Shown: piece after piece, positions 1-20,287 of the stretch | Position numbering within the stretch: the first letter of the stretch is position 1 | Layout: each line of letters starts with the position of its first letter | Origin: Clytia hemisphaerica | Lineage: Eukaryota > Cnidaria > Hydrozoa > Leptothecata > Clytiidae | Assembly (NCBI GenBank): GCA_902728285.1 | Contig: CACVBU010000824.1 | Span: 885,307 to 949,306 of the forward strand | Direction: 5' to 3' | DNA: 64,000 bases | The notes under the pieces: generated by a model | Told to the model about the DNA's origin: nothing | What the model saw: the letters and a program-made list of their open reading frames with translations, nothing else | Database searches by the model: none | Program-made: the position numbers and the translations under genes

Positions 1-914
1 AATGTCAGTGTTGGCAAGCATCTTCAATACTGAATCTCAGTACCGTCACTTGGGCCTTTGTCACTTTTTTGACCCGAAAACGTACTTTTTTGAGAGCTTG
101 ATGAATTTTTTTCCATAAATGTGCAGTCCCCTATAGGTGTCACTTGCATATGGCAAAAATTCGACCGGTTTCAGTACCAGCATATTTTCTGTACACGTTT
201 TTTTAAGAAGAACGTCGAAAATTTTGAAGCCGTTCGGATGTTTTTAACTGTTTGAGTTTTAAGCCTAAAAATGTTCTTAATTTTGTCATTTTGTGATATT
301 TTGTGCAATTTCCCAAGAAAATGGGTGTTTAAGCGTCCGCAAAGCCTTAAAATGTTCTTAGCATGCTCTTAATATTTTGGCTATCGAAGCCTTGTGTTCT
401 TATATAGTTTGTTCTTATATAAAAAAACGTGTACATCATATTCTAACTAAGAAATCGACCCTACTTGAAGTACCATTTTTATTTATGAAATAGTAAAAGA
501 AAATTTTTTTTTCAAAAAGATGAAATTCATTCCTGAAAGTGAAAATTTGAAAATCGAAATGAAAAGATTTAACCTTGCACAGGAAAAAATCAGAAAATTT
601 CACCCGTGATAGTTAAGATTTCACTATGATATTCCGCACCAGCGAAACAAATTTTAGATTAATTTCGGTCGCGATTTTTTGCACGGTCAGAATGCGGTGA
701 AAACTTTATTTCACTCAATGACTTGTGGAAATCTACCACCAAATTTACAGGATATTTTTACCCTACAATGAAAAAGTGGTCAAATTTGGATCTTAAAAGT
801 TGTTCTTTATTTAAAAAAATAAATCTTTCGTTTTAAAATGTCACGCTTATACAAATATATTACAAAGGTTAACTATGTATAACGTTTAAAAATGAGATAT
901 ATAATTCGTGAGTT
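1..914. other. AT-rich intergenic DNA
   Basis: No exon, RNA gene or clear repeat was recognised. Only short, low-complexity reading frames are present on either strand. Confidence 0.5.
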
Positions 915-1500
915 ATTTTTGTGAGTTTTTTGTGAGTTATGTTGTTTGACGTCATTCAGTGAGTTACTTTGATAAAATATAACTCATCCATTTATTTCAA
1001 GGAATAACGACATGAGTTAATAACTCACGAACTTATTCTAAAGAATAACATTACGAGTTAATAACTCACCGCGTTATTTCAAAAAACAAACTCGTGAGAT
1101 ATTAACTCATGGCCTTGTTCAAAAAAATAACATCGTGAGTTATAAACTCACGCTTTTGCATAAAATTGAATTTAGGGAGTAAATTATCCCCGAAAATATT
1201 CCTAAATTTGCATTAAAAACCTTATCATAAGCTCAATTGTCCATATCTTGACACGCATTCTAGTTTTATAAGATAAAGTCGCTAGTTGGTAACTCACGCA
1301 CTTATTCTTTGGAATAAGAGAACGAGTTATTAACTCGTAAGCTTATTCTTTGGATAAGGTGGTGAGTTATTAGCTCGTATTGTTATTCTTTGGAATAAGT
1401 TCGCGTTATTCCTTGAAATAAAGGGATGTGTTATTCAATCAAAAAATAACTCACGGAATGAGGTCACAACGCATAACTCACGAATATAACTCACAAAAAT
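915..1500. mobile_element. Fold-back element rich in GAGTTAT repeats
   Basis: The two ends are inverted copies of about 90 bp. The left end, read rightward, runs from TTTTTGTGAGTT through GTGAGTTATG and GTCATTC to TTTATTTCAAGGAATAACG. The reverse complement of the right end gives the same series with scattered mismatches. Inside are several spaced copies of GAGTTAATAACTCAC-like palindromes separated by TTATTC or AAGAATAA blocks, around a unique core near 1180-1280. No coding capacity is seen. This is consistent with a non-autonomous fold-back or MITE-type DNA element. The exact outer ends and target duplication are not resolved. Confidence 0.6.
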
Positions 1501-2528
1501 AAATTATTATTATACTATACATTATTATTATACATTATTATACGAATTATACAGCTCTTTAAAAATAAACTGCGTATATAAAAGTTCTAAAATAAAATAA
1601 AAATTCCCTTGGTGTGGCAATGATGAAATAATTTAATCAATTGGGTCTAGATGGGATAGACACAGTGAGTGGTAAACACAAGGATTTGAAAAAGGAAATC
1701 ATACTTAAACAAATCAAACAAATTTACTGCACTGAGGATGGTTCTCTGTTGAGTACCGAAACGTATGCAAATAAATTTTAGAAAAATGAACAAAATGAAG
1801 CTTCTGAAATCATACTTGCGTTGGATTAAAAGTAAACTAGATTTAATATCCAACAACAAAACAAAGAAACAATCCATCGCACTTTCATTATTCAGATGTA
1901 CAGCTTCTCCCGGGATTAAGCTGTTTAAAGGGGTATAATATCATTGAACAAAGTACAGAAAGAAAATAACTAAAGAAATGAAATAAACTAAAGGAAATAA
2001 ACTAAAAGAAATTCACTAAAGTCATAACGTAAGACAAACTTTCGACCAAAAATAACAGGGTTCCCAGCATAACATTCCGTGACTCTTGCTCAAAAATTCG
2101 CACTTATTCCCTAACAAAAATGTTGAAAAGGGTTAGAACCGACCTAACGAAACTAGACTTTTTCCTGACCAAAAACGTTACGTTAATTTTTCATGTTGTA
2201 GTTAAAAAATTCGACTCTTCAAGAATCTCCTCTCAGTTTTACAATAGCCATGTATGGTGTTTTTATAATGAGTATTATTGAGTAATTTTGAGAAACACAT
2301 CTTTCATTCCCAAATTTTGGAGAAATTTTCCAAAAAAAGGATGACTTTACAGGTTTTCCCTTACCGCTAGAAACCCTGAATGAACTGGAGTGAAAAACAA
2401 AAAGAATATAAAGTTGATCCTTCTATCATTCTACCAAGGAATAAAACTAATGAATAATTTCCAACTACAACCATGACGAAGGTTGACTTTTTGTGTAAAA
2501 ATACTTCGAATTAGAAAGCACAATACAA
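1501..2528. other. Intergenic DNA 3' of the HECT gene
   Basis: AT-rich sequence with no supported gene. It lies beyond the stop codon of the minus-strand HECT gene and should include its 3' UTR, but no processing signal was singled out. Confidence 0.4.
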
Positions 2529-5500
2529 TTACACTTTACCGATGCCATTAGAGTCTTTTATCGCCGAGACGATTGACTTCGTCATTGCTTCAAATGATGA
2601 GTTGTGCATTGGTAAAGTGATCGAAGGTTCACATAGCGATGATACGGGTAAACATTTGCAATCTTCACCACACTCTTCTTCAGGTTTGAATCTAATGAGA
2701 ATATTAGAATCAAACCCTCCTGCTGGGACTGTCGGCGTCCCGGTAATGAATAGCAGTAGTAGATCAGAAAATTCAAGATTTCCTAAATAGAGAAGTAGAA
2801 ACATCAAATCAATTGACAACCAAATCATTGATTACGTCAGATCAGAGGGAAAAATTTTCTCACGTTCCTCTTTGCGTGAAATTTCAAACATGTGCATTTG
2901 GGGCAAAAAAACCAATGTCAAACAATTTCGAAATATTTTCCGACTATTGAACAATAGGTACAACATTGCTAAAACTAGGGGCTGACAGAACCCTGAGAGT
3001 AACAGAATCATTGAAAGTAACAAAATGGAATCTAAAATTATATAATGAACCGTGTTTGAGGTTGAAGTGAGACAATTTTGTTTACCTTTTTGAGAACAAT
3101 ACTTTGAGATATCGATACCTAAAAAAAGAGAGGTAAAATAAAAACCTATATTGATTTGCAAGAGAGAAGACCGACTCGTGTAATATGTACTGTGTTGTGT
3201 ATGGGACGTTTTGTTGCATCCAGAAATTTATGTTTACAGCTTCGGAAATAATAAAGCCTTTTTTTACTTTTTACTTAACTCGATTTGCATTTAAAATTGC
3301 TTGCGTTCACTTCTATAATATCTCTACATGACAAAGGAGTTGTTTAAAAAAAAAATAAGTTGCTTGATGTAGCCGTTTCTTCAATGAAAACATTTGAAAA
3401 TATGATAAACAAACCACTTCATTTTCTGAGCAGTAGTCTTGGAGAATGAAAATTCTGGTAATAAATACCTCCATTGCTGAGACGATCCATGACGTCATCG
3501 AAGATTTTTTGGACGTTGATTTCTCTAGCTCGAAGGTTTGAACCGATTGGGCCATTAAATATAGTCCGTGTCAAATCGGTGATGTCACAATCCTTAATCG
3601 AGCAACAGGTGAAACAGCCCTTGAACGATCCAGGGTTCTTTTGAAGAAGTTTTAGTAATCCGTTGATATCAAGCCCCTGACTCAACTGGCTCAGGGGTAA
3701 GAGCCTCGGCTCAATTTCTTCTTTGAAGTAAACGCATCTAAAAATTGAAAATGAAAAATTCCTTTAAAAATCATGCATATCTTCCCTTTACAGATTCCTT
3801 GGGCGTTACACTAGAGCAACCCGCTATGAAGTTGACAATAAAATTTTACATTTTTACGACTTTGAGTAGATTGGATTTAAAGAAAATTGGCCAAATACGC
3901 TACTCTTTTATGTCCTGCCGTTATCAAAATAAAGTTATGACCAAATCAAAAACTACTTTCAATTCCACAGTATTCTACATTCTACATATACATAGTGTGC
4001 AGAGGGGTCCATCCCCCAGCATTTTTCAGGGGGGGGGCTAAGGAAAATAGCCCCCGGCTAAATAAAACGTACTCTCTGGTCTCTAAAAGACGTCCCCCCC
4101 CGCTAATTAATTTTTCGAAAATTTTCCACCCAGGACATTCTTATTCCAGCCCCCCGCTTATTAAATTTTGAAAAAATAATTTCAAAACTTCTTCATTTCG
4201 CCCCAATTCTTCTTCATTAGCCCCTTTTTTAGTAATTTTCCACCCGGGACATTCTTATTCCAACCCCCCCGGCAATTAGTTTTTGAAAAATTTTCCAGAC
4301 CCCCCGCTTATTCCAGACCCCCCGTCTATTAGAGACCTGAGAGTAGCCCCAACCTTGACAAAGCAAAAACTCAACGAAATTATGCATATAAATTCTCAAT
4401 AAATTTCTTGCGCCGCAGGCAAAAAAAAATTTAATAAGGGTCAAAACCTTGCTTACAGCATAGATTTTCAACATAATTCAAAATATTTGTAATCTATAGC
4501 TCTGCCCCCAGTTTCTATTTCTAATCTCTCAGCCCCCCTAGCAAACTAGCCCCCAGTATTTTTTAAAAAATACAATCAAGTAAAAATGGTTTAGCCCCCC
4601 TAAGCTCAGGGGGGTCATTCTATGATATAATTCATCAAATGGCAAACTGGAAAACTTTTCAAAGGAAGAAAAGTCGTGTTGAATTTCTTCTTCCTTTGTC
4701 GAATCGGGAAGATTTCGGATAAAAATACAAATTTTCCTAACTTAACCGATTCAAAAGTAAGTTTGAAAAATCAATTTTCTTCCAAATGTGTGGCTTCTTT
4801 TTGTCAAAGCTGGACGGGTATCCTATTTCAAAGTTTCATATAACCTACATAGTGCCCTCAGGGGTCTCAGCCCCCCCCCCCAGAAAAAATTCCAAAAAAT
4901 AAAAAATTTAGCCCCCCAGCAGATGCCCCCAGAAAACAGCCAAAAATGGCCAAAAACGTTCAGCCCCCCCTTTTTGGAACTTTTTGAAAATCTCTAGCCC
5001 CCCAGTAAAAAGGGGGGCTGACACTATGACCTAGTCTAGGTTATAGTTGTTTTAAAGTTTAAAACATCGAAAAGGGTTGGAGATGAAAATAGAAAACATA
5101 ACAAGAACAAATTCGCCATTCAATGACAATGCGAATTCAAATGTGGAATTCATGATATGCATCATGGACCAGCAGCTGATTAGATTGGTGTTAAGTGACG
5201 TAAAATCAGTCACTGCATCAATTGAAACCAATCAATTATTGAGTACGTGATGTTGCAATGAATACATTAGTTGCAAGGCAAGTGTTGCATATCAAGAATA
5301 GTGCAAATTTTGACGGGTTCGAGATTGACGTAAATTGGAGCTTTATGCTGCAAGTACGACAGGACAAATTTGATTCTCTAACGTTGATTCCCGTACTCCT
5401 CAAAAGTTGCTGTATTCCAGGCTTTAACTAGCCTGTACCAAACCCCCACAGCGGGACGATTTTTCAAATCAAAAAAAAATCTTTCCGTGTGAGGGTTTGA

Positions 5501-8500
5501 AACGTCGAGGCGATTTTCTTGTCCATAAATGGGGTTTCTAGAGCTAAGGAGAACTTTAGAAACTTTCACTGTTTACGAAAGTAAGTTTTGCATTTCATGC
5601 ATTTTAATTAGAAACAATCAACTTGAGAATTGCTTTTCATTACAATTGTCATAAAAAGTTGGAAAGGAATTGATTTTGATCTAGAACAACTCCCCAAGGG
5701 AAATAGAATTGCCTTACTTTGATACGTCATAATGTGAACATTGCACTTCATCGTGTGGCTTTTTGCAAATAACCTTGGACAAGAAATCCTTCTCGACGTA
5801 ACAAACCCAACTATCTTCAGCAACATCAAAATGGTAGGGTTTGGTACAGGCTAGGCTTTAACCGAAAACAAATTGACGTTAATCTAATCTAAAAATCAGG
5901 TGCGTGGTTTTTTTTGCAATATCTCCTTAAAATAGACATTTTTACCTCAAGACATCTTCCCTTTGAGAAAGCTCAAACTTTGCAATCGATGCGGTGAATC
6001 CAATTTTTTCAACCAAATTGTAAACTGCATCATCCTTGATTAGTGGGTGTCTCGTCGTCTCTTGATTGGATTTTGCCTCTAATAGCTAATAAAAATCAAA
6101 TTTGATCTGGATTTTATAAACAAATAAATACCTTATTGGCAAAATAAATTTCGGCAGGGAAAAATGAGCCAGTTTGTCTATTTTGGCGGAATTTATTCCG
6201 GCGATTTAATAAAATTTCTAATTTTGAAGAGAACTCAAAGGTAGAAGAAGATTGTGCGTAATATGTTTATAAAATTTTAAAAAATTATGATCGAGAAAAT
6301 TTCTTCCCTGGACATTTTAATTCCCGACCCCCCCCCACACTGAGGGTAAAGTTCCCTTGAAATTAGGAGAGGCATAGTATTTTTAGAGTTCATATGTTTT
6401 TTAAAATTAATTTATTGCACATCAAATAAATCTATCTGGTGCCAGGCAAGTTTCTTCCAAGATGCATAACTCTGATGATCAGGAAAATATTCAACATCTG
6501 GAACCTTTGGATTCAGACCGTGCAGCAGATTTCAAAGAAAAAGACTGGCAGTGGTTTTCATGCGATGTCAGCTACAACTGCAATTTCATAGGAACACTGA
6601 TAGCTGAAGCCGGCTGATTTTGCGGCGCCTCTTAAGGTCTTTGATGGTAAATTGGCCTGCTCCTTTTGAGCTTAAGTGTGGGCGGCACAAAAGTGGAAAC
6701 CCCGAAAAACAAGATTGTTGAATAAAAACAAAATTGAATATTTTCATCTAAAAGACAGTGATATTTTCATGATTTTTTCAAGTTACAAACCCTTCCAAAA
6801 ACCTGCCCAAGTCTTTTTTGATAGCACTGTCCAATCTATCCTCCATGAAAAAATAACTCTGTTTAATTTTTGTCAAACATTCTTTTTGTAAAAGTCGAAA
6901 GTGGTTTTTGGATTTTCCTATGAAGATAGTTTGACTATACAATCATAAAAAAATTTTACCTTTTGGATATCTGGTTTTCGGGTAAATTCTTCAGGATAAT
7001 CTGTAACAGTTGGCATGGAAGATGTCAAAATGTAATTATAACACCAATCTTGCAATATTGCCGGGTTCATACCACAGTGAAGAACCGACAAGCCCATTAG
7101 ACGTCCAGCATAGAAGAAGGATTGGTTTGTTAAATTCATTGTGGATTTGTTAGGAAGCCCATCTGTAAATAGTTCGGCTTTCATTTGGTCAATGGCAACT
7201 AAAATATAGAAAAAGGGAGAAAAGTTTGAAATCTGAGATCGTGTGTAAATTGCAAAATGGTACAAATTGTTATTTGGAAGTCAAACATGTGAAAAACACT
7301 AATTCAGATCATCGACTCTTTGACATGAATTGACATCACTAACCAACAATGGGTTCTGTATTGGTCCTTGACCCCTTGACCGAAAAATTCAAACAAACTT
7401 GCTCGAACTTTCGAATATGTTAAAAAATTTGCGACTTAAGTTATTCTCACCAGTGAAAAACTCTCTAACTGGGCCAGATCCAGTACCAGGCTCCCCCACA
7501 AATCTGACGCGCAACGCTTTCTTCCCGGTAAACCATGGCTTGTTTACCATGGCATCTCTGTAGTCCTTCCAGGCAAAAAGCCTTCTAACGGAGAGTTTTT
7601 CAAATGGGTCTGTGTCAGAAAACTTTCTTATTAAATCCCCAACATTTTGTATCACTTCCTCCGACTCTTCTTCATACGGCAGAGTTTCATCTATCTCTTC
7701 ATCCTCACTAACACTTATTGTACTGTAGTTTATTAGACCACAATCAGCGGCATGTTTCTCAACAAAGTTTGCTGGGAAGGGAGTTCCACAAATAGGGCAG
7801 TCTACATAACTCCGTTCGATTGATGATCTTGGGCGTGAGTTTGAACTTGATGGCTGTTGATTAATTTCGGCGTTGTCCTTCTTAGCTCTACTGTCACCCT
7901 CACCCTCTTGATCACTTGAGCTACCATCACTAGCTTCTACATCAAAAGGAGAATTCAACTCGTCCACAAGGTCTCTCAGTGGTACCGGATCAACATTGTC
8001 CAAACCGAGATCCGTTGAACTTCTAATATATATTGGAGTAGTTTTGGCAAAGTGTTTGATAGTGTGAAAATCGTACTCATCAACATCTGGCTGGACCAAA
8101 TCATCGCCATTAACCGCTTTAAGAAATTCAAAACCTTGTAAATTAGCAAATCTCGTCTGGAATCGTTCCAAAATCAAGGTTTTGATTTGACTTTCTGTCA
8201 TTTCATCGTTAATACTGAAAATAAAAAAATACATTTTGCAGGATGTTCCTTTGCATCTCTCTTTTGAGACTCAGACAGCGGCTACACTCCTTTTTTATAA
8301 GAATAGTGTACCTTGACTGAGGTACAGCTAGACACCAATTCTACACATTTATAAATTGTACGTTAGACATGGGCTACCAACGAGTCTGCTAAATTGCGTG
8401 GATGGATGTGTGGGTCAAAAATCTGTGTGGGTCAAAAATATGAGTGGGTGCTTGGGTTGAAACTTTTTTCCATAGGTAATTTTTTTTTGCTTGGATGCGT

Positions 8501-10032
8501 GCGTGGGTAAAAAGATATTTTGCGTGGGTAATTTTTTTGTGGTTGTGTGTCCAAAGCAGTCATTTACTGACATCGTCAACAAATTTATAAAAAAAAGATA
8601 GGATTCAGCAAATGGGTTTTCATCGCCAGGTTTCCGGGCTACACCTGAACAAAAAAATGTTTGATTTTCACCGAAATTCAAAAAAAAAAAAGATTTTTTG
8701 AAATTAGGGCTTCGAAAAGTGAAAAACTCTTTGTATTCTTCTTCATTTCATGTTTTCATTTCAATTTTTTGATTTTTAAATTCTAAAAAGGTAGGTCTAA
8801 CAGGACATATAAAAAAAGTTTTGCATTTATCTTTTTCAAAATTCAGAAATTGCCATTTAAGTTGACATGAAATCGAAAAATTAGGTGTATCACGAGCCCT
8901 TAAATTATTTTTAACACTTTGTAGTTTTTAATTTGAATGACAAGGTCAAACGAGGAAAAAATGCTCAGTAAATGACTGCTTTGGACACACAGCAACGAAA
9001 AAAATGACCCCCGCAAAAAGATTGATATTGCTAAACTTGCCACAGTCTCTTTACCATAAAGAGTGTTGAAGGGACACGTTACGTATGAGACATTTTGGGG
9101 TATAAACCTGTCAAAAAATCTTTTTTCAAGAATTTTTCAGGCCAAAAGTGATATGGACCACCAAGAATAAGGTAATAGGCTGTAAAAAAACTTTACTCCA
9201 ACAAGGTTGAGCTATGCAATCAAAAACTACAAGCAGGGGGGCACCTTTTTTGAGAAATTGGGCAAAATTCTTGCAAACGACCCAAGGGTTTGTATGCTTT
9301 TTGTTTTATGTATGTTTAGTCAATCTTGATGGACCTTCATGCCAGAGACTGTAGAAAAAATTCTCACGTTAATCCAGTAATGACCAACTTCTTTTTGTGA
9401 TAATTGGTTCTTGCAGACTTCAAGGGAATGCGTTGGTAAACAGGATGGGGTAACAAGAAAATGTCTTTCTTCATTTCTGACCCCCTGCGTTTCTTGGGAG
9501 CCTTCTCCTTCCCTCGTTGTTTGAATCTCTTCCCACGAGACGGCAAAGATGCAGGTGGTGATGTTTTTGATTTCTTACCTGCAAAAATAAAGATTTTTAT
9601 CCATATTTTATCAGTGTTGCTAAACATATCAATAAGGTTTTCGTAATAGGAAGTATTTCAAGCTTGAATGCTAATTGGACCTAGCTGTTGATAAGGGTAC
9701 CTGAAGCAATAATGACTGATTATGATCATACCCCGGCTAAAATAGTGTTGTAAAATAAGAGTGCTTAAAGTCTAAAATCACTGTTTTGCATAAAACGAGT
9801 TTAAAGCTGGAAATAAGTTACCATTAATGTATTATTTGTGTGGGTAAAATGTGGTTTTCATTTTGTGTATAACTTATATCTGAAATAGCTAACAACTGTT
9901 TCTTAGATAGAAATTACAAGAGTGTAAAGTTAAATTACCAAAAAACTCACCTCCAGCTCTTCCATTGCTACTGGGGAAGAGGTTCATTGACACTTTTGGA
10001 ACTTTTGTTTTCTTTTTCGTCATCACCATCAT
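2529..10032 (-). CDS. G2E3-like HECT E3 ubiquitin ligase with a C2HC zinc finger, 7 exons
   Basis: Exons on the minus strand are 10032-9951, 9578-9368, 8214-7451, 7198-6960, 6085-5946, 3737-3469 and 2782-2529. All junctions are GT-AG, phases agree, and the total is 1959 nt, giving 652 residues plus stop. Residues 1-97 are basic. A UBZ/Rad18-like finger (CPICG, then H and C) lies near 237-256, after an acidic Ser-rich linker. The HECT domain runs from about 300 to the end. It includes FVGEPGTGSGPVREFF, the FITGTPTVPAGGF block, and LPVSSLCEPSITLP, whose Cys (about 619, 34 residues from the end) matches the position of the thioester cysteine in HECT ligases. The expected role is ubiquitin transfer; the substrate is unknown. 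The start is the least certain point: an out-of-frame ATG at 10083 opens a 39-codon frame that overlaps exon 1. The gene looks like an intact host gene with transposon-filled introns. Confidence 0.85.
3991..4623. mobile_element. CATAGTG-ended DNA element in a HECT-gene region
   Basis: The left end is CATAGTGTGC and the right end is CATTCTATG, flanked by a 5-bp direct repeat ATATA (3986-3990 and 4624-4628). The interior is rich in C or G runs and holds a second element nested at 4070-4345. It lies in the intron between HECT exons 5 and 6. It is non-coding. Its ends match the 181-bp element at 4848. Confidence 0.6.
4070..4345. mobile_element. Nested MITE with TACTCTC ends
   Basis: Inverted ends of about 24 bp: the left reads TACTCTCTGGTCTCTAAAAG, and the reverse complement of the right reads TACTCTCAGGTCTCTAATAG. 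Two internal copies of a TTTTCCACCC(A/G)GGACATTC block are present. The same block recurs near 53990 and 54460, so this is a dispersed family. No coding capacity is seen. Confidence 0.65.
4848..5028. mobile_element. Short CATAGTG-ended MITE with 5-bp target duplication
   Basis: The left end is CATAGTGCCC and the reverse complement of the right end is CATAGTGTCA. The 5-bp repeat ACCTA flanks it at 4843-4847 and 5029-5033. The interior is mostly C-rich on the left and G-rich near the right end. It is 181 bp, non-coding, and sits in the same HECT intron as the element at 3991. Confidence 0.7.
5429..5853. mobile_element. MULE-like MITE, 17-bp TIR and 9-bp target duplication
   Basis: The perfect 17-bp inverted ends TAGCCTGTACCAAACCC and its complement bound a 425-bp element. 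The flanking 9-bp direct repeat GGCTTTAAC lies at 5420-5428 and 5854-5862. A 9-bp duplication is typical of Mutator-like elements. The element is in the intron between HECT exons 5 and 6. The interior carries short open stretches on the minus strand but no recognised transposase. Confidence 0.75.
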
Positions 10033-10083
10033 CCAATGTATCAACAAAATGTGTGAATTTCTCCAGTAGTTTCTTTTTGTCCA

Positions 10084-11879
10084 TTATGAGCTATTCCTAT
10101 AAAAATTATATACACCAGGGGTATTGACAAAAAGTTTTTCTCGTGAAATTTTAGAATAATAACAAATCATCCCCTGGAAATTAAAGGGGGTGACACACCT
10201 AGAAAGTGAAATCTTGTGAAAGGCTTTAGTCCAGCCTGCTTTAGCACATCACAGTTTTAGCATATGTTTTGCATATTTTCCTGCATATTCTCACCACAGG
10301 AATTTGGCCATCATAATTTTTCCATATAATCCAATATGGCGAATGGAGAGGCGAAAGATATCGAGGTTTCCAAATTATGTACCTTTGAGCCAATTATCAG
10401 AAAATTTGAGTAAGCCAATTTCGAGAAAAGCTGAGTAATTGGGGATGTGCTTATAAAAAAAGATCGAATTTGGCCCATTTTCTTACAAAAACATGTCTGA
10501 CAACCAGTATTTCATACTTATTAAGCAAAAACATTCTTTCAAATTATGACTTCATGAGCAAATAATATATCTATCCCGTCTAGAATTTGAGTAATTTAGT
10601 TAAGAACATCGACCCATGCTTATAAATAGCGATTCTTATAGCTGAAGATGCGTTTTTGAGCCAAAAAAATTTTCTATGTAAATCTGGTTCGGCCATCTTT
10701 TACCTAGGATGATACCCTACTTTCGTGCAAAAATTCAGAAAAAATTAATGATTGGCCCAAATTTGCCCAAATATTTTTTTTGTCAAAAATCGGGCTCTGT
10801 CACATTCGAGGGTTTATAGTCATACACCTTTGTGCCAAAAATCAGGGTATGAATGTGAAAGATGGCTGGATTTTAAAATGGTTAGCGTGCGTTAAATCTG
10901 TAAACATTCTTTAAAATCCATAGTGTGCAAGGGGGTTCCAGGTCCCACCAAAATGAGAGATCCCAGCACAATCTAAAGCCCCACCTGATATTTTGTAATC
11001 TGTGGTCCCACCTAGAACTTGAGTTTTTCCCTGCTACCAAAGCCCAAAAGGCAATTGTGTGTATGGACCCTTTTTAACTATGAAAGTTATCCCACGACGC
11101 TCACTATGAAATCTAAAAGATTTTCCTGTTTTTTTTTCTACTCAAGAAGGGTCAAATTCTTTAGATGAAAAGCGAGACCATGATATTACAGCACCAGGCC
11201 CGGGCCTTGGCCCAACAACAAACAGGTTCAACTAAATCCTGCTTTAAAAAAACCCTTGAAAAAGACCTGTTTTTGGCAGGCAGGGTTTATTCTTAGAAAT
11301 TTTCTCCTGTTGGCCCCAACCATGGTGGTGTGTGTGGCACCTGCAGACACTGGACATGGCCCTACCCACTTTCATCAAACATCAAAACAAAGTGGAGCCG
11401 CAGCGGCCTCTGATGTTTCTTAGACAGAATAAAAAGATGGTCTGGAAGCTCTGTAAAATGGTTTCTTTTATGACATCCCATGTAGTCCCAAGCTAGAGCA
11501 GTTGACAGTAGCATTAGCCCCCCCCCCCCGCTTGCTTGCCTTAGAAATTACACTTGGTGTAGCTAAAATCTCATCGCTGTCTGAGGGCTGAATACTTCCT
11601 GTTCAACTAACTACTCCATTTAAAGCAGCTTTCAGGCATTTACACCATAATCAAAAGAAGAAAAAAAGGACATGACCACATAACATTGAGATCAAAACCA
11701 AAACAGTGGTGTTTTCACCACATTTTGGACTTTCTGTTCCGCCATTTCCATATAAAGCATGTTGTTCTTTCCATCCAGCAAGCATGTTCCCGCCGTCCCA
11801 CCATGCGCGGGTCATGCATGCAAACTTTAAAATGAGCGAGGCAAGACGTGCCAACCTCGTTTCCAGACTGTTTTCGAAA
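10084..11879. other. Intergenic stretch with partial repeats
   Basis: No gene is supported here. A CATAGTGTGCAAGGGGG terminus at about 10919 resembles the left end of the element at 3991, but I could not find its right end. A C-run lies near 11520. A short minus-strand frame at 11651-11854 has no recognisable domain. Confidence 0.4.
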
Positions 11880-12129
11880 AGATAGTATGTTTTAAAAAAG
11901 ATAGTATCGTTTTAAAATAGATAGTATTGTTTAAAAAAAGATAGTATCATTACAAAAGATAGTATGTTTTTAAACGAAGATAGTCTGTTTTAAACGAGAA
12001 TAGTATTTTTTCAAACGGAAATAGTATTTTTTCAACGAAAATAGTATTTTTTGAACGAAAATAGCATGTTTTAATCGAAAATAGTATTTTTTAAAAAAGA
12101 TAGTATGTTTTAAAGAGATAGTATTTATT
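11880..12129. repeat. Minisatellite, about 13 copies of a 20-bp unit
   Basis: The unit is (G)ATAGTATGTTTTAAAAAAG and variants, repeated head to tail with divergence; some copies end in AACGAAA. It lies about 430 bp upstream of the start of the DUF6589-like gene. Confidence 0.85.
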
Positions 12130-12557
12130 TCCGCTTTGGCGCGTTATATTTTTCACTAAAGATATAATCTATATATATTAGCACTATCAAGTTTGAACAA
12201 GGTTATGCTAATACAAGCAATGGCCAAAAGTTGAGACGAGACGTGAAAAAGCAAATAGAGACATTGTTGAAGGAACGTTTAGTTTGTTTTGGAAAAAAAT
12301 GCCCTTATCTAGACATAAACCTACAGTTTCTATGTTGCTTTCTAATCATTATATTTATTTTACAACCTTATTAAAAAAATTATCCTTTGAAAATTCCATC
12401 GATTCAAAAATTGCACTCCGAAAAGTTAAAATAAGTCGTAAATGCTGAAACAATTAATTACATCATTTTCGCGCGCATGTCCTTTGAATTATCACTTTCG
12501 ATCTCAAAACCACAACAAAAACAACGCACGTGAGTTATATGAGACTGCGGTCACGTA

Positions 12558-15500
12558 ATGGCTTCCAATTCAAATGATAATCAGTTTAATTATATAGAAC
12601 GACCTAGTACGTCGAAAGAATACTGCAGACTGTGTTCTGAAGAGTACAAAGTTTACAACGCGGAATCTAAAGAGTGCCGGTTTAATTTATTCGCCACGAA
12701 AAAATCCAAAAAGAAAAAAGAGAAAGACAACGCTACACTGAGAGACAGACTTAGAGCTGTGAATTTGATTGTTGAAGAGGATCCTGACTTGTCGGAGTCG
12801 ATTTGCCGATCATGCGTATCAAATTTGAAAAAGATTGAAGAGGCGAAGAAAATAACAGAAAAATGGGTCGGACTCGGACTGAAAAGGAAACTCCCAGAGG
12901 TGGATGAAGAGAATGAACAGCAGATTGTTGGCGCGAAAAAAATCAAGATCGCTAATGATTGTAATGAGAAGGTGAGTTTTTAACCATTCCTATATTTTTA
13001 TGCATTATAGCCCATTACTTACCTTACCTTAACTTTTTGGTCCTAGATCAAACTCTAGACATTCTATAATTTCAGATGGAAGTTATTGATCTAGCTGACT
13101 TAGACGATATCTCGCATGCATGCTTTACGGAATTTCCCAACGCTGTAAAAGAGCTGGAGGCACCCACCGTCGAAAGTATTGTCAATTTTAGCGATGCAGA
13201 ATCTTGCAAAGCAGTCGATGCCCTATGTCCGGTTCTATCTAGTGCTTTGAAAGGTGCGATGGGTGGAAAAGATCGAAAACCAGACGGAGAATCCTCAGTT
13301 GACCATGCAATCAGAACTTTATGCTACGGCGCCATTTTCAAATCACGGTTAGTAATAAAATATTAATACGTAAAGAATTGATTGTATTATATCTGTGCCT
13401 GGGTTCGACTGACCTTGATATCTGACCTTGGGCATCGCTAGAAGTTTATTCAAATTTTCTTTTAAGGTATCCCAAGAATTCAAACGTTGTTGCTTCGAGA
13501 AATGACCAAATGTTAGTATCGGCGGGTGCTAGCAAACGTTCTTTTGGGTGGTTCAACAAAATGGGTCTTTCTAATTGTTATAATACTGCTTTGGAGCGTA
13601 ACGAAGACATGGGGGAAAATTTCGATTCTGAAGTCCTTGGTTGGAAAAAGGAGATCGAAGATGACTACAAGGCAATTTTGGCATTAAAGAAAGATAATGA
13701 CGCAACGTTCGAGGAGGCAAAACAGCTACGGAGATTGACAAATCCGGCTGCTGCACTATTTAAGGTTTTTAATTACTTTTTATACCATCATAAATATCCC
13801 AGTCAAAGCTACGGTGAAAATTGTTCTAGTTCTAATGATAAATTTAAAACAATACGTTGATTGGTTTCTGCTAAAACTGAAACACTCAATTTTCTTTTAG
13901 ATTGTTGGAGACAACTTGGACTTTGAGAAAAGGGCAAGACACCAAGGAAAGAACAGACGTAATGAAAGCATCCATTGGTTTCACTACATGGCTATATTAC
14001 ACAGGGTTCATCCCTCTAAAGGTAACGACTATTATTTTCGAAATCTGCATCAAAAATTTTTTGTTTTCTTCAGAATTGATGATCAATAAGAAAGGACTAA
14101 TTTAATGGGATAAAAACTTTAATTTCACTTTTTACATTTAGCCAATCGAACACTACAAGAGTATCGCAATATGCCTATATTCCCTGGATTGAAAACGCAA
14201 GAAGTGCTTTCAAGCACCTACAAGATCCTGATAGCCCGAAGCATTGTTAACTTCATCCCTGCATTCAAGTTTCTACGGAAAAACGTCTGCTGGCATATAC
14301 CTCACGCATTTTCAAAAGAAATGTCAGAAAAATCTCGCGTTGTAAGTATTGGTATAAGCCCTAATAATCTTACATACCTTACTTAAAAACATAAATTGAC
14401 GAGGAGATATGAGTTGTGACATTATGTTAGAAATCTTTTATACTATGGTAAATACCGTCACAAAGTTTAATTAAAAAAGATAAACATTATTTATTCAGGT
14501 ACCTCTTGGACTTTCGTTTCACGCTGAAAACTCTACAACCGAAATTATTCAAATTATACGGGAAATTCAAGACAAATATGTTCCAATGATGGACATTGAC
14601 ACTGACGAAGATGATGAAATAGGGAGACTAATCATCGAATCACTATTGTTCGGAGGAGACCAGCTTACAGAAGAGAGGATCATTAACGCTCAACAAGGCT
14701 TTGTCGATTGTCGAAACGATTATGAGATGCTGCAAGGGTTGAAACCAGCTTATGAAGACTGGCATTTGAAGCGAACCCTATACGAGGTAAGACTGAATAA
14801 AACAATATTTAGGTGTGCCTTATATATTGATAATAACTAAACCTTCTATGATTATTTTTATAATATCAAAATGAATCAAAAATACCAATGACATAAAAAA
14901 AATAATCGTTTACTTCCATCAGGTTAAGGAAACAATATTTCGCCAAAGAGAATCAGGGGCCCAACATGGTACCACCGAATGGTCGATGAATGTAACGAAT
15001 TCAACAAATGCCAAAAAAGGAGCTAAAGACGATTTCAACGCATTCAAAGAGTTTAGCGATGTCGAAACAGATGCATTAATTGTAGCTGCAACGATGACTC
15101 ATTTTAATATGCAAAAAATCGAGGGTAAGTTGAAAGTTGTTCAAAGGATTTTATTTAATTCAGTTTTCATACCAATGATGAAATTTATAAGTTTTCTGAA
15201 GAATTCTCTTATCTTTTGAAAATTTTAATGATTAATTTTTTTTCACCTTACAGATGATCCTATTCCTGGCGATGTCAAAAATGGTGGTAACGATGCAAGA
15301 TATGCTTGGCTACAAAAGAATGTGGAAGAAATTTTCAGAAGGTCAGCACTTTAGCATAAAGACTATATTATTACAGCGTGAAGTAATAGTAAACAAAGTT
15401 GGTTTATATTCTACAAGTTTAACCCTTTTTTACCAAGATTTCTTTTTGTATTTTCAGATTCACAGTGATGTATAATGTTGAGATCAAAGAAAATGCTAAA

Positions 15501-16509
15501 GTCGAGGATAATCCATTCAAGATGAAACTGTACTTTTGTTCGAAATGCGAAAACACAACAAAAAAACCGTACAAGACAAAAAACGGGCGAGACAGCCACG
15601 AAGTTGCTAAGCACCAATATGACAGGTAATAAAAAATAGATATCCTGTCTAAAGTTTAGTATAAAATAATCTTTGAAAGCTCTATCGAAAATGTGCTAAA
15701 ATAAAAAGTTACAATAGAATCTGATATAACAGAAAATGTTTAGCAGAAAATATCACTCAAATACAATAATATTTGAAAAAATATATAGAAATAATTTCTT
15801 CATTTCTAGAAATGCTATGGAGTCAACTAACGAACCTACTGAGGAGGAAGAGAAGGAAACTATCAATCACAAATTGAGTTATCAGAAAGCATTGTTTACT
15901 TACAATTTGTTGTTGAGGTCAATAAATGATGCAATCAAAGAGGGGGATGGAGAAAGGCTGTTTGAGCATTATCGAGTTGCAGTCCTTTATTTCAAGTGTT
16001 ATGGAAGAAGTAAATATGCCTACACAGTTTTAAAATCATTCTTTCGTATTAAGATGGAGCCATCTGCTGCCCTGAGTCTTATTTGGGAACGTTTCATCAA
16101 CAAACATGGAATGAAGGGGTACAATATTAGTATGGATTTACACATGGAACACTTGAACAATTATTTAAAGGAGCTACTTCGTGACCTCCGTGGCAATGTC
16201 AACAGAGAAAATGCTGAAAGAGTATCAAAGTCATTGAAAAATCTTAAAAGCATCGTGGAAAAATTTGAAAACGAGTCAAAAATCAAACAACAAATTTCAT
16301 CAAAAAACAAAGCAAAGACTCTTAAAGATGTTCAAAATCTCGTTGCTCAATTCATGAAGCAGAATATCTTTGCCGAAAGCAATGAGAAAAGTCACAGTTA
16401 TGAATCGTTCCCTGATTTCAACAGTGACACACTTTCAAAGCTAGATATTGACAAACTTCTTCAGTGGGCAAAATCAAAAAAGGAAGACTTCAAACTGTTA
16501 TATTCTTAA
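12558..16509 (+). CDS. DUF6589-like protein with ZAD-like and C2H2-like zinc fingers, 10 exons
   Basis: Exons are 12558-12971, 13076-13347, 13467-13764, 13901-14021, 14142-14341, 14499-14786, 14923-15124, 15254-15341, 15458-15625 and 15810-16509. All are GT-AG and in phase, giving 2751 nt and 916 residues with no stop or frameshift. Cys23-Cys26 (CRLC) and Cys83-Cys86 (CRSC) form a ZAD-like finger. The central part has GDNLDFEKRARHQ, NESIHWFHYMA, EEMSEKSRVVPLGLSF-like and EDWHLKR blocks that I recall from DUF6589 (Pfam) proteins of invertebrates and fungi. Near residue 660, FCSKCE, then H and H, looks like a C2H2 finger. SMDLHMEHLN follows near the C-terminal helices. The gene meets the RecQ-like gene tail to tail, 107 bp apart. 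The function is not established; a transposase-like or DNA-binding role is inference. The start ATG is the first in the frame before CRLC. Confidence 0.8.
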
Positions 16510-16616
16510 ATTTCATAGCATTTTTTTTGTAACTCAATGCTTTTGTTGTTTGATCTTGAAAAGAAAAATTAGAAATGAGTATATTCATAAAATATAACAA
16601 TGTTCCTTCAATTCCT

Positions 16617-18840
16617 TCAATGTTCAAGCTCAAAATCTATATCAATATCAGATAGGTTTTCAAAATCAGAAAAAACATATTTTTCCTCCTCGTTGACACT
16701 GTTTTGATCTGTTTCAGGTTCCTTTACAGCTTCCTTTTCAGGACAAGAAACGAAATAGTCTGATATTATTGAGTAAATCATTATCGCAATGTGTTCATCA
16801 ACTATAGTCATGTGATCCATCAAGTAGTCTGGTGATGTTACGTAGTTGATATTCTCTAATATATCAGTGATCACTGGTCTAGTTAAGCCAGTTATCGAAG
16901 AAGAAGGTAAGTTTATATGGGGGTCACTTTGAAAATAATTATGATGGTATTCCAATAACAAAGCTTCAATAGCACTTTTATCCTCCAGTGTAGCATTTCG
17001 AACTGGTTCAATAACATGGGCAGTACCAAACTCGCATTCCTTTTCAAAATCATGATTATTGGGATGATCGGAAGATTGATGACAGACTGAGCAACATGAA
17101 TAGGCTGGAGCTAGCGAAACAATAGGGCTGCTATTTTCGTTGAATGGTGAAAACAATGCAGTGCGTAAACAGGTGGTTAATTTGGTGTAATTTTTCATTT
17201 TTGGGTTGATGTCCTTGTCACAACCTTTGTATGTGTATAATATGGCATGACAATCCGATTCATCATTCCGTCCTGCCCGCCCAATCTGCTGGCAGTAATC
17301 AACAAGTGAAAAAGCAGGCCCAAAATGACAAACATACTTTAATTTTTTTGCATTGATACCACACCCGATTGTGCTTGTTGCAATTATGACACGAGGTAAT
17401 GTATCATCTACAGAAGTAAGCGAAGCAAGGTACTTCTCTTTGTTGTGTGGTGATGTGTCTGCATGAAACATGCCAACAAGAAAATTATCATAATGCTTTT
17501 CCCGATTTTTGTAGATTCCTAATCCAAGTTTGGATAGAAACTGCCCAAATAACCAAGAAACCAGTTTCTGAGATCGACAATATATCAACACTTTTGGAGT
17601 GTTTTCACTGTTTTGACTGATAATGTTGAGCAGCCAATTAAAGCACGATATTGATTTGCTCCCAGCATCTACGATTGATAGTCTAATATTCTTTCTATCA
17701 GGAGAAGAATGAATATACCTTACATATTTAGACAGACTGCATGCACCTCGCAAAATTTCAGTGAAGTCCATTTCAATTGTTGCACTAAGGGCCAGAACGG
17801 GAACTTTCTCTGAACAAAATGATCGAATCTCTCCGATGCGAGAAAAGGCTTCTCTGAATACGCTTTCTGTAGAAGATGAAGCAGGAACACCCCTGAAAAA
17901 AAGAGTAAAAAACTTCTCAATACAGTAAGGGTAAATTTTGGTGAGCCTCTATGCTTAGCAAAACGAATTTTTTGAGCCTCATGCTTATGCTATGCTTATG
18001 TACATACATTTTGCAAGTTTTTTGTAATTTGGGAGATTAAAAATGCCTTGAAATCTTAGACTGAGGCTTAGCATATGTTTAAGTTTTTCTAATATTTGAG
18101 CCTGAATATGCTTATTAGTGTTATGCTTATTAAAAAAACGTGTTTATTACACATATATATATATATATCATGATCAAGCCTGGGAATGTCACAAATTGAA
18201 ATTTTGATTTAAAAAATACATGGAACATATATGCAGGATCAAAGATTTTTTTGTTTCAATTTGCTAGCAAATAAAAAGGCCTTGGTTTAGGCATTTTCAT
18301 AGAAATAAAAATTACTTACCACGAAATTTTATGGGCTTCATCAACAACAACACAAACAACGTTCTTTCGAAGAAATGACGTGGTGAGAAAATCTTTCACT
18401 GAGGACAAAAGCCATTTTTCAGGAATTCCAAATAAGATATTGTACCCATTCATTTTAAGTGTTTCAACGTCTGAACATTTGTCAAGGCTGCATGCCTTGA
18501 TGTTGAGATATGAACCAAGTTCTTCAGCTTCAGCAATTTGATTCCGTATCAGATTTTGTAAAGGCGAAACCACAAGAACAATTGGGTGCTTCGAACTGTT
18601 GGGAAGGGCCCGGAAGATTGAAGGAAGTAACTGATAAATCATACTTTTTCCATATGCGGTAGGAAGGATAGCAAGAGTATCTTTACCAGCAACAACATTT
18701 TCGATGCAGTCCATCTGCTTTCTCTTCAACGAGAAATTTGAATCAACTTTCTTAATTGCATCAGTAGCAATTTTTTCTAGAGTTAGAGAAGATTGTTCAG
18801 TCATTTGTGACTTAAAAGCATCAACTTGTGCAGCAGCCAT
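16617..18840 (-). CDS. RecQ-like superfamily 2 DNA helicase, 2 exons
   Basis: Exons 18840-18320 and 17892-16617 join in phase to 598 residues. The visible motifs are Walker A PTAYGKS (residues 60-66), SPLQNLIRNQ (Ia), VVVDEAH (about 164-170, Walker B), ALSAT (III), VLIYCRSQ (IV), ATSTIGCGI (V) and QQIGRAGR (VI). This fixes it as an SF2 DEAH helicase of RecQ type. A Cys cluster (CCSVC, then H and C residues) follows the core. No RQC winged helix or HRDC domain is recognisable, and the C-terminal tail is acidic. It would unwind DNA 3' to 5' using ATP. It is convergent with the DUF6589-like gene, and both are undamaged. It could be a host helicase paralogue or the helicase of a mobile element. 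Confidence 0.85.
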
Positions 18841-20287
18841 TTTCTAATGTGATGTTGTTATAAAAATAACAGTTTGTTTTGTGTACGTTGTTATAAAAAT
18901 AACAGTTTGTTTCGTGTGTCGAGTTCGAGATTTCCAAGACAGGAGTAAAACCACTGATGATATATGTGTTGTGTCTAATGTTTTTTTTAAATAACAGGTT
19001 TTTTGTGTATCAAAAGTAAAACCAAGAGTATGAAGTAAAATCTAGTCTGCCGTTGTGAGAGATTATAAATTTGTTACTATTCATATTATTAATATTTGCT
19101 AAAGAAGAAGTAAAAAAACAAAATATTATTTGCAAAAAATTGAAAATAGTTTTCTAAGATTACCACAACCAACTTTCCCAGCCTTGTTTATGTTTATAAA
19201 AAGTGCGCCATTATGAGATTCAAAATTATTCAAAATTAATATTCGCGGTTCAATGGTTACACTCACTAAAACTAAAATTGCGGAAAGCAACTTTTTCTTA
19301 AATAGTAAACACGACCGCGCATTCTATGTTCACCTTCTTGAACATTCAAACAGACCCGTCTATCTGCTGAACAAGGAATTCGAGTTTTTTCGAGATTTCC
19401 GCAGTGAAGCGATAGACGGGATTCCGGTCTAACCTTTGGTTAGATGACGGGTGACTCTAGAGTAGCAGGGCAAGCTTACTCATGCCCACACCTGATGCCA
19501 GACTTTGGTCTTCATCTATCCACACTCCATTTATTTCTCAACTTTCTTTAAATTCACTTACCAGTTTTCTCTCCGCTAAATTTGTAGATTTATATTTATT
19601 GTTTGTCTATCGTAAGAATGTTTATTTGTGGGTTGTTACTTTTTGGTTCTTTGTATATATTTCGTTATTGTTGTTGGCTTTAAGGTTTGTTGCTGTTTTC
19701 TTTTGTTGGTTTTCAACTTTTGTCCTTGTCGTTGTTGAAAAAGTTGGTGAAAATGATTTCTCGCTCAGGCTGATGGAAATTAATGATATGTTTACCGTAA
19801 TGACGATTTTCAGAATTCGATGCAGCCAAGTTTTCATTATTCATTATTTTACCATAAACATTTATTTTTACCAGATTTTTCGTTTTTCCTTATAGATACA
19901 CAATCCGAAGTCTAACATTGAGTTACGGTGATTGGAAGAGTTTACGCTGATAAAGACCATCGTCTATACCCGGAAAACTATACTTTAGCTATAAAAAACT
20001 TGGACGTATATTATAGAGTTGGGTCACAAGACCACACAAACCAAACGCAAAATCATTATCTTGAACTTTTCAAAATATCTTAAGGTTTAATCGTAAGGAA
20101 TCGTTAGTTAGGAATCGTGGAACGAGGTGATGAGCGTCGATTGTAGAACAAATTCATATCGAAAAGAGATGATAGGAAAAGAAATAAAATTGATGACATC
20201 AAGTCAAAACTTTGTAAAGTGTTTTCAAAAGTTGGTCGTAAACTAGTAAATACTGTTGAAATAGAAGAAATAAAATAAGAATAAACA
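18841..20287. other. Intergenic stretch with a short tandem duplication
   Basis: A unit of about 35 bp (GTTGTTATAAAAATAACAGT plus TTGTTT) is present twice at about 18855-18915, just upstream of the RecQ-like start and probably within its promoter or 5' UTR. No gene is supported in the rest. Confidence 0.45.

Follow-up and report, generated by a model that had tools for sequence, protein, structure and literature searches.

A 64,000-nucleotide stretch of the Clytia hemisphaerica genome (hereafter the window; contig C566, positions 885307-949306, from a 417-Mb assembly of 951 contigs) holds two genes that meet tail to tail, one encoding a protein with a DUF6589 domain and the other a RecQ-like DNA helicase. 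A preliminary description of this DNA proposed that they form a two-gene mobile or selfish system, either a large DNA transposon or a rolling-circle-like element. Do the two genes travel as one unit, and if so, what kind of element carries them? Here, we find that the two-gene mobile system is supported and that the pair represents, with a probability of roughly 0.85, the genes of a ~7.8-kb mobile DNA transposon, most likely of the AcademH type.

Both genes are open over the 916 and 598 residues previously proposed, and they converge with 107 bp between their stop codons. The splicing reconstruction bears out the intact structure claimed for them, as all introns are GT..AG and the nine of the DUF6589 gene are consistent in phase; the earlier count of eleven phases gives way to ten introns, nine in one gene and one in the other.

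12558-16509, + strand: DUF6589 gene, 10 exons, 916 amino acids (aa), open frame; putative transposase
12558-12971, 13076-13347, 13467-13764, 13901-14021, 14142-14341, + strand: DUF6589 exons 1-5, from the splicing reconstruction
14499-14786, 14923-15124, 15254-15341, 15458-15625, 15810-16509, + strand: DUF6589 exons 6-10, from the splicing reconstruction
18840-16617, - strand: RecQ-core DNA helicase gene, 2 exons (18840-18320, 17892-16617), 598 aa, open, GT..AG intron

The first protein matches the Pfam family DUF6589 (PF20231) at E 3.9e-38. Two zinc fingers had been described in it; the N-terminal one corresponds to a weak zf-AD match under the curated Pfam cut-off (E 2.5e-4), and the second is a C-x2-C..H..H pattern recognized only by inspection of the exon 9 sequence. 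The second protein carries the Pfam domains DEAD (E 5.5e-21) and Helicase_C (E 1.9e-14), matches the NCBIfam model TIGR00614 (recQ_fam) over residues 35-396 at E 2.5e-40, under that model's curated cut-off, and among solved structures is closest to the WRN helicase core (E 2.5e-21), the nearest others being RecQ cores as well. The core motifs of the RecQ family are present and the zinc-binding/RQC and HRDC domains are not: RecQ_Zn_bind matches only weakly (E 0.033), and neither RQC nor HRDC is among the Pfam matches listed at E up to 1. The protein is the stripped RecQ that the preliminary description saw, and some RecQ proteins are known to do without these domains. No relatives of either protein were found on viral contigs.

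We queried the genome with the two proteins and with the Pfam model for DUF6589, scoring the best candidates of each search (73 of 430 for the helicase protein, 102 of 356 for the DUF6589 Pfam family and 50 of 842 for the DUF6589 protein), and merged the matches into 63 RecQ-like and 108 DUF6589 places. At 36 of the 63 RecQ-like places a DUF6589 match lies within 8 kb, and all 36 pairs are arranged tail to tail; random placement gave a mean of 0.32 pairs and at most 3 in 2000 trials. The count drew on 82 RecQ rows, 105 DUF6589 Pfam rows and 24 of 94 DUF6589 protein rows, the other 70 being taken as further exons or the same places. The genome holds at least 105 DUF6589 Pfam matches, and some of these are fragments of a single gene. 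For the remaining 27 RecQ-like places no DUF6589 match was scored within 8 kb; as scoring was confined to the top candidates of each search, a partner may still be present there. Our results do not show the pattern that had been set against the two-gene reading, a lone helicase locus and DUF6589 copies that never adjoin it.

The same genome contains a second group of DUF6589 genes (L001-L008, on C472, C860, C168, C61, C341, C783, C470 and C811), which are intronless, have open frames of 610-626 aa and include near-identical copies. None has a RecQ match within 8 kb among the places scored, the nearest lying 10.5 kb off on C168. The ends of these copies were not found; four of the five pairs compared (without L003) match over most of ~4.3 kb.

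If the two genes move together, copies should share outer boundaries with the window. Matches to the window from the copies on C556, C232, C695 and C449 all start at position 12149, and the right edges of the C556, C232 and C22 copies fall at 19431 or 19432. The copies on C556 (99% identity) and C232 (93-96%) have ~530 bp more in common to the left, most of it also present on C449 and C695; we looked for this outer left part in the window and it is not there.

12149-19431, unstranded: transposon part in the window, 7283 bp, left ~536 bp missing
19361-19431, unstranded: conserved right end, its last 10 bp, TTCCGGTCTA, forming the right inverted repeat
19355-19420, unstranded: subterminal inverted repeat, arms 19355-19364 and 19411-19420
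19432-19440, unstranded: right copy of the 9-bp target duplication ACCTTTGGT, left copy on contig C508
12149-12154, unstranded: TTTTTC, also at the C508 break; 6-bp duplication attributed to a second transposon that split the element

The element copies share the ends 5'-TAGCCAGGAA...TTCCGGTCTA-3' (in the C556 and C232 copies the left end reads TAGCCAGGAAACACTG and the right end GGGATTCCGGTCTA), which are short imperfect inverted repeats: over the terminal 10 bp, the left TAGCCAGGAA and the right TAGACCGGAA agree at 8 positions. The preliminary description had found no terminal inverted repeats by eye; the family has them, and in the window copy the left end is missing. A genome search with the conserved right end scored 40 matches (the window included) of 59 candidates. 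On C470, C113, C851, C784, C418 and C403 this end is 90% identical to that of the window, and coding-DNA matches there are mostly 65-76%.

The subterminal inverted repeat could fold as a hairpin in DNA (z -2.63; 4 of 200 shuffles fold equally well). Short derivatives of 112-132 bp retain only the ends, ~60 bp on the left and ~66 bp on the right. The left hairpin arm is missing from these derivatives, and mobility therefore probably does not depend on the hairpin.

An exact 9-bp duplication flanks the element in 14 of the 15 rows with both ends, and no other length from 4 to 14 matches. Eight of these rows are one 119-126 bp derivative with the same flanks and were therefore counted as a single insertion, which leaves the duplication at 7 of 8 independent insertions (window/C508, C556, C232, C748, the short derivative, C473 and C472). 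This test covered copies with both ends in hand; C449, C695, C22 and C545 are missing one end, and for C470, C784, C418, C403 and C251 left ends were not obtained. The duplication rule also served as a forecast: for the copy on C113, with a helicase match of 54% protein identity, the 9 bases past the right end followed by TAGNCNGG gave a single exact match in the 417-Mb assembly, on the right contig and strand and 7.1 kb from the right end. The genes thus travel together, as the preliminary description had suggested, in 36 paired places, with shared ends and 9-bp duplications. The 119-126 bp derivative lies on C480, C104, C18, C557, C366, C254, C714 and C346 with both flanks common to all eight; it is embedded in a larger repeat, and that repeat has itself multiplied.

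Where, then, is the left end of the window copy? A left end at C508:2156206 is identical to that of the C556 copy over 99 bases, and its left flank ends in ACCTTTGGT. When the C508 and window flanks are joined with one ACCTTTGGT, the resulting 205 bases match 40 places at 96-98% identity (the best 40 of 256 candidates), 39 over the full length and one from base 3. The element therefore landed in a common repeat, and these matches are empty sites.

The C508 piece stops after ~536 bp at TTTTTC, beside TATGGCGCGCCAAAGCGG, and the window copy resumes with TTTTTC at 12149, after nearly the same terminal sequence inverted. The junctions read ..GGCCTTTTTC followed by TATGGCGCGCC.. on C508 and ..GGCGCGTTATA followed by TTTTTCAC.. 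in the window, and TTTTTC is single in unbroken copies. The TTTTTC duplication and the inverted terminal sequence at both breaks therefore argue that a second transposon split the element. IS3EU elements are described, in excerpts of PMC12730594, as having a 6-bp duplication and ends TAYGG..CCRTA. The C508 side of the second element (TATGG..) and the 6-bp TTTTTC duplication fit this description and the window side, which ends ..GCGCGTTATA and not CCRTA, does not; the label IS3EU-like refers to the one end and the duplication only, with the transposase not identified. Such an element would have inserted ~536 bp from the left end of the window copy, and the halves may lie on separate contigs either because copies of the second element recombined or because of the assembly.

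Positions 1-12148 of the window make up the right-hand portion of a large repeat whose full length is perhaps ~16.3 kb (perhaps C566:881109-897454), with inverted ends TAT..CGCGCCAAAGCGGAAATAAATACTATC, a 6-bp IS3EU-like duplication and a ~20-bp minisatellite at 11869-12124. Its end has 39 further matches (best 40 of 394 candidates), and we infer that this copy has its other end at C566:881109. On the - strand at 7389-8270, a 293-aa open stretch without a Pfam match at E up to 0.01 has near its end the motif FVGEPGTGSGPVREFF, which we take to be HECT-like.

Comparison of the copies shows that synonymous change exceeds non-synonymous change in both genes. The ratio of non-synonymous to synonymous substitution rates (dN/dS) for DUF6589 and RecQ, respectively, is 0.29 and 0.17 against C556, 0.40 and 0.27 against C232, and 0.42 and 0.17 against the partial C22 copy; against the less close C748 copy it is 0.05 and 0.10. 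The helicase reading used was 4 residues short (594 of 598). The compared codons of DUF6589 contain two in-frame stops in C232 and one in C22. Between the window and C556, 0.5% of coding and 1.05% of non-coding positions differ, and there are several coding indels.

DDE-type transposases move DNA elements that have inverted repeats and target duplications of fixed length, and we tentatively attribute this role to the DUF6589 protein because it is the only one of the two that can fill it. Three intronless DUF6589 proteins of the same genome, at 24-26% identity, have the same residues at D332/D335, D489, W523-H524 and E797, and the D, D and E residues are invariant in all four aligned proteins, which suggests a D-D-E transposase, putatively with an RNase H fold, as judged from sequence. 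In the mechanism we propose, the zinc fingers of this protein would bind the ~60 bp of the left end and 66 bp of the right end, the protein would excise the element and join it to the two target strands at positions 9 bases apart, and gap filling by host repair would leave the 9-bp duplication. The low dN/dS and the constant layout argue that the helicase probably acts in transposition as well. Its RecQ core, presumably a 3'-5' helicase like others of the family, might open the ends or unwind a strand-transfer or repair intermediate in place of a host helicase, a step with less support than the others.

To which known type does the element belong? Excerpts of PMC10045372 give AcademH 9 or 10 bp duplications and state that its difference from AcademX seems tied to an encoded helicase and nuclease, and excerpts of PMC10799480 tie DEAD and Helicase_C domains to AcademH, KolobokH or Helitron; both cite Kojima 2020 (Mob DNA 11:15) as the source for AcademH. 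The window element has both features, a DEAD/Helicase_C helicase of the SF2/RecQ type beside a transposase-like gene and duplications of 9 bp, and we consider it likely to be an AcademH member and probably a new member of an already described transposon type. The comparison draws on published descriptions of AcademH, in its helicase and its duplication length. A transposon of the same make-up outside Academ, a DUF6589 lineage of its own that acquired RecQ independently in the manner of Kolobok lineages, is an unlikely alternative to which the AcademH-like helicase and duplication length run counter. In its favor, excerpts of PMC9587614 report RecQ genes in KolobokH and in Kolobok-1_CCri, DDD/E-type elements, and place that of Kolobok-1_CCri on the complementary strand, as in the window element. 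DUF6589 is also unnamed in the literature searched, PF20231 turning up only in an unrelated optics paper, and Academ enters the comparison through descriptions. We regard as rather improbable that DUF6589-RecQ is a separate two-gene superfamily outside Academ, one that came to depend on a RecQ partner separately from AcademH and KolobokH. Kolobok itself targets TTAA, and the duplications here differ in being 9 bp long, none containing TTAA.

The subterminal hairpin and a right end in CTA had prompted a Helitron reading, which we dropped on the left ends and the 9-bp duplications. Helitrons share with this element a helicase of their own and a terminal hairpin. Helitron-like elements leave no fixed-length target duplication and have a Rep/HUH nuclease-helicase as their hallmark; here, fixed 9-bp duplications accompany terminal inverted repeats, no HUH/Rep or PIF1-type family is among the Pfam matches listed, and the short derivatives do without the left hairpin arm. 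A Helitron-like element is barely credible, and of the two branches of the preliminary description the large DNA transposon stands and the rolling-circle element is not supported, given the duplications. The 9-bp length is also what Mutator-like elements (MULEs) often make, and it is the only feature that speaks for a MULE with a captured RecQ gene. No MULE/Mutator-type Pfam match was present at E up to 1 in the two DUF6589 proteins scanned, and the inverted repeats of the window element are very short, making such an origin highly unlikely. Unrelated or host genes that are neighbors by chance, for instance a domesticated pair, could account for two open genes with low dN/dS and for RecQ and DUF6589 matches that also occur apart. 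For the family this is contradicted by the many copies, the tail-to-tail order in 36 of 36 pairs, the common ends, the target duplications and the empty sites, and the C556 copy is ~99% identical with several coding indels, as expected among transposon copies; we judge a host pair very improbable.

Several observations weigh against the transposon reading as we propose it. No RecQ match lies within 8 kb of 72 of the 108 DUF6589 places, among the best candidates scored. The C850 insertion has no target duplication, and a left end forecast for C851 by the rule used for C113 had no match in the genome. A profile of four DUF6589 sequences matched no transposase among solved structures, the best hit being unrelated at E 1.7. 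The copy on C748 has one in-frame stop in each gene within the compared codons, and its dN/dS values (0.05 for DUF6589, 0.10 for RecQ) are rough, as dS has reached saturation (2.28 and 1.83, respectively). Since the target repeat has many copies, it is conceivable that the C508 piece and the window copy arose from separate insertions at one and the same repeat position, although they are broken at an identical point of the element, each next to the same second transposon.

The association of DUF6589 with RecQ, shared ends and target duplications gives a Pfam family without an assigned function a probable job, that of a transposase. In such genomes, many gene models of the RecQ-like and DUF6589 kinds may accordingly belong to transposons and not to the host. 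Minimal ends are defined by the two-gene layout together with the ~125-bp derivatives, and with them the role of a helicase in DNA transposition would become testable.
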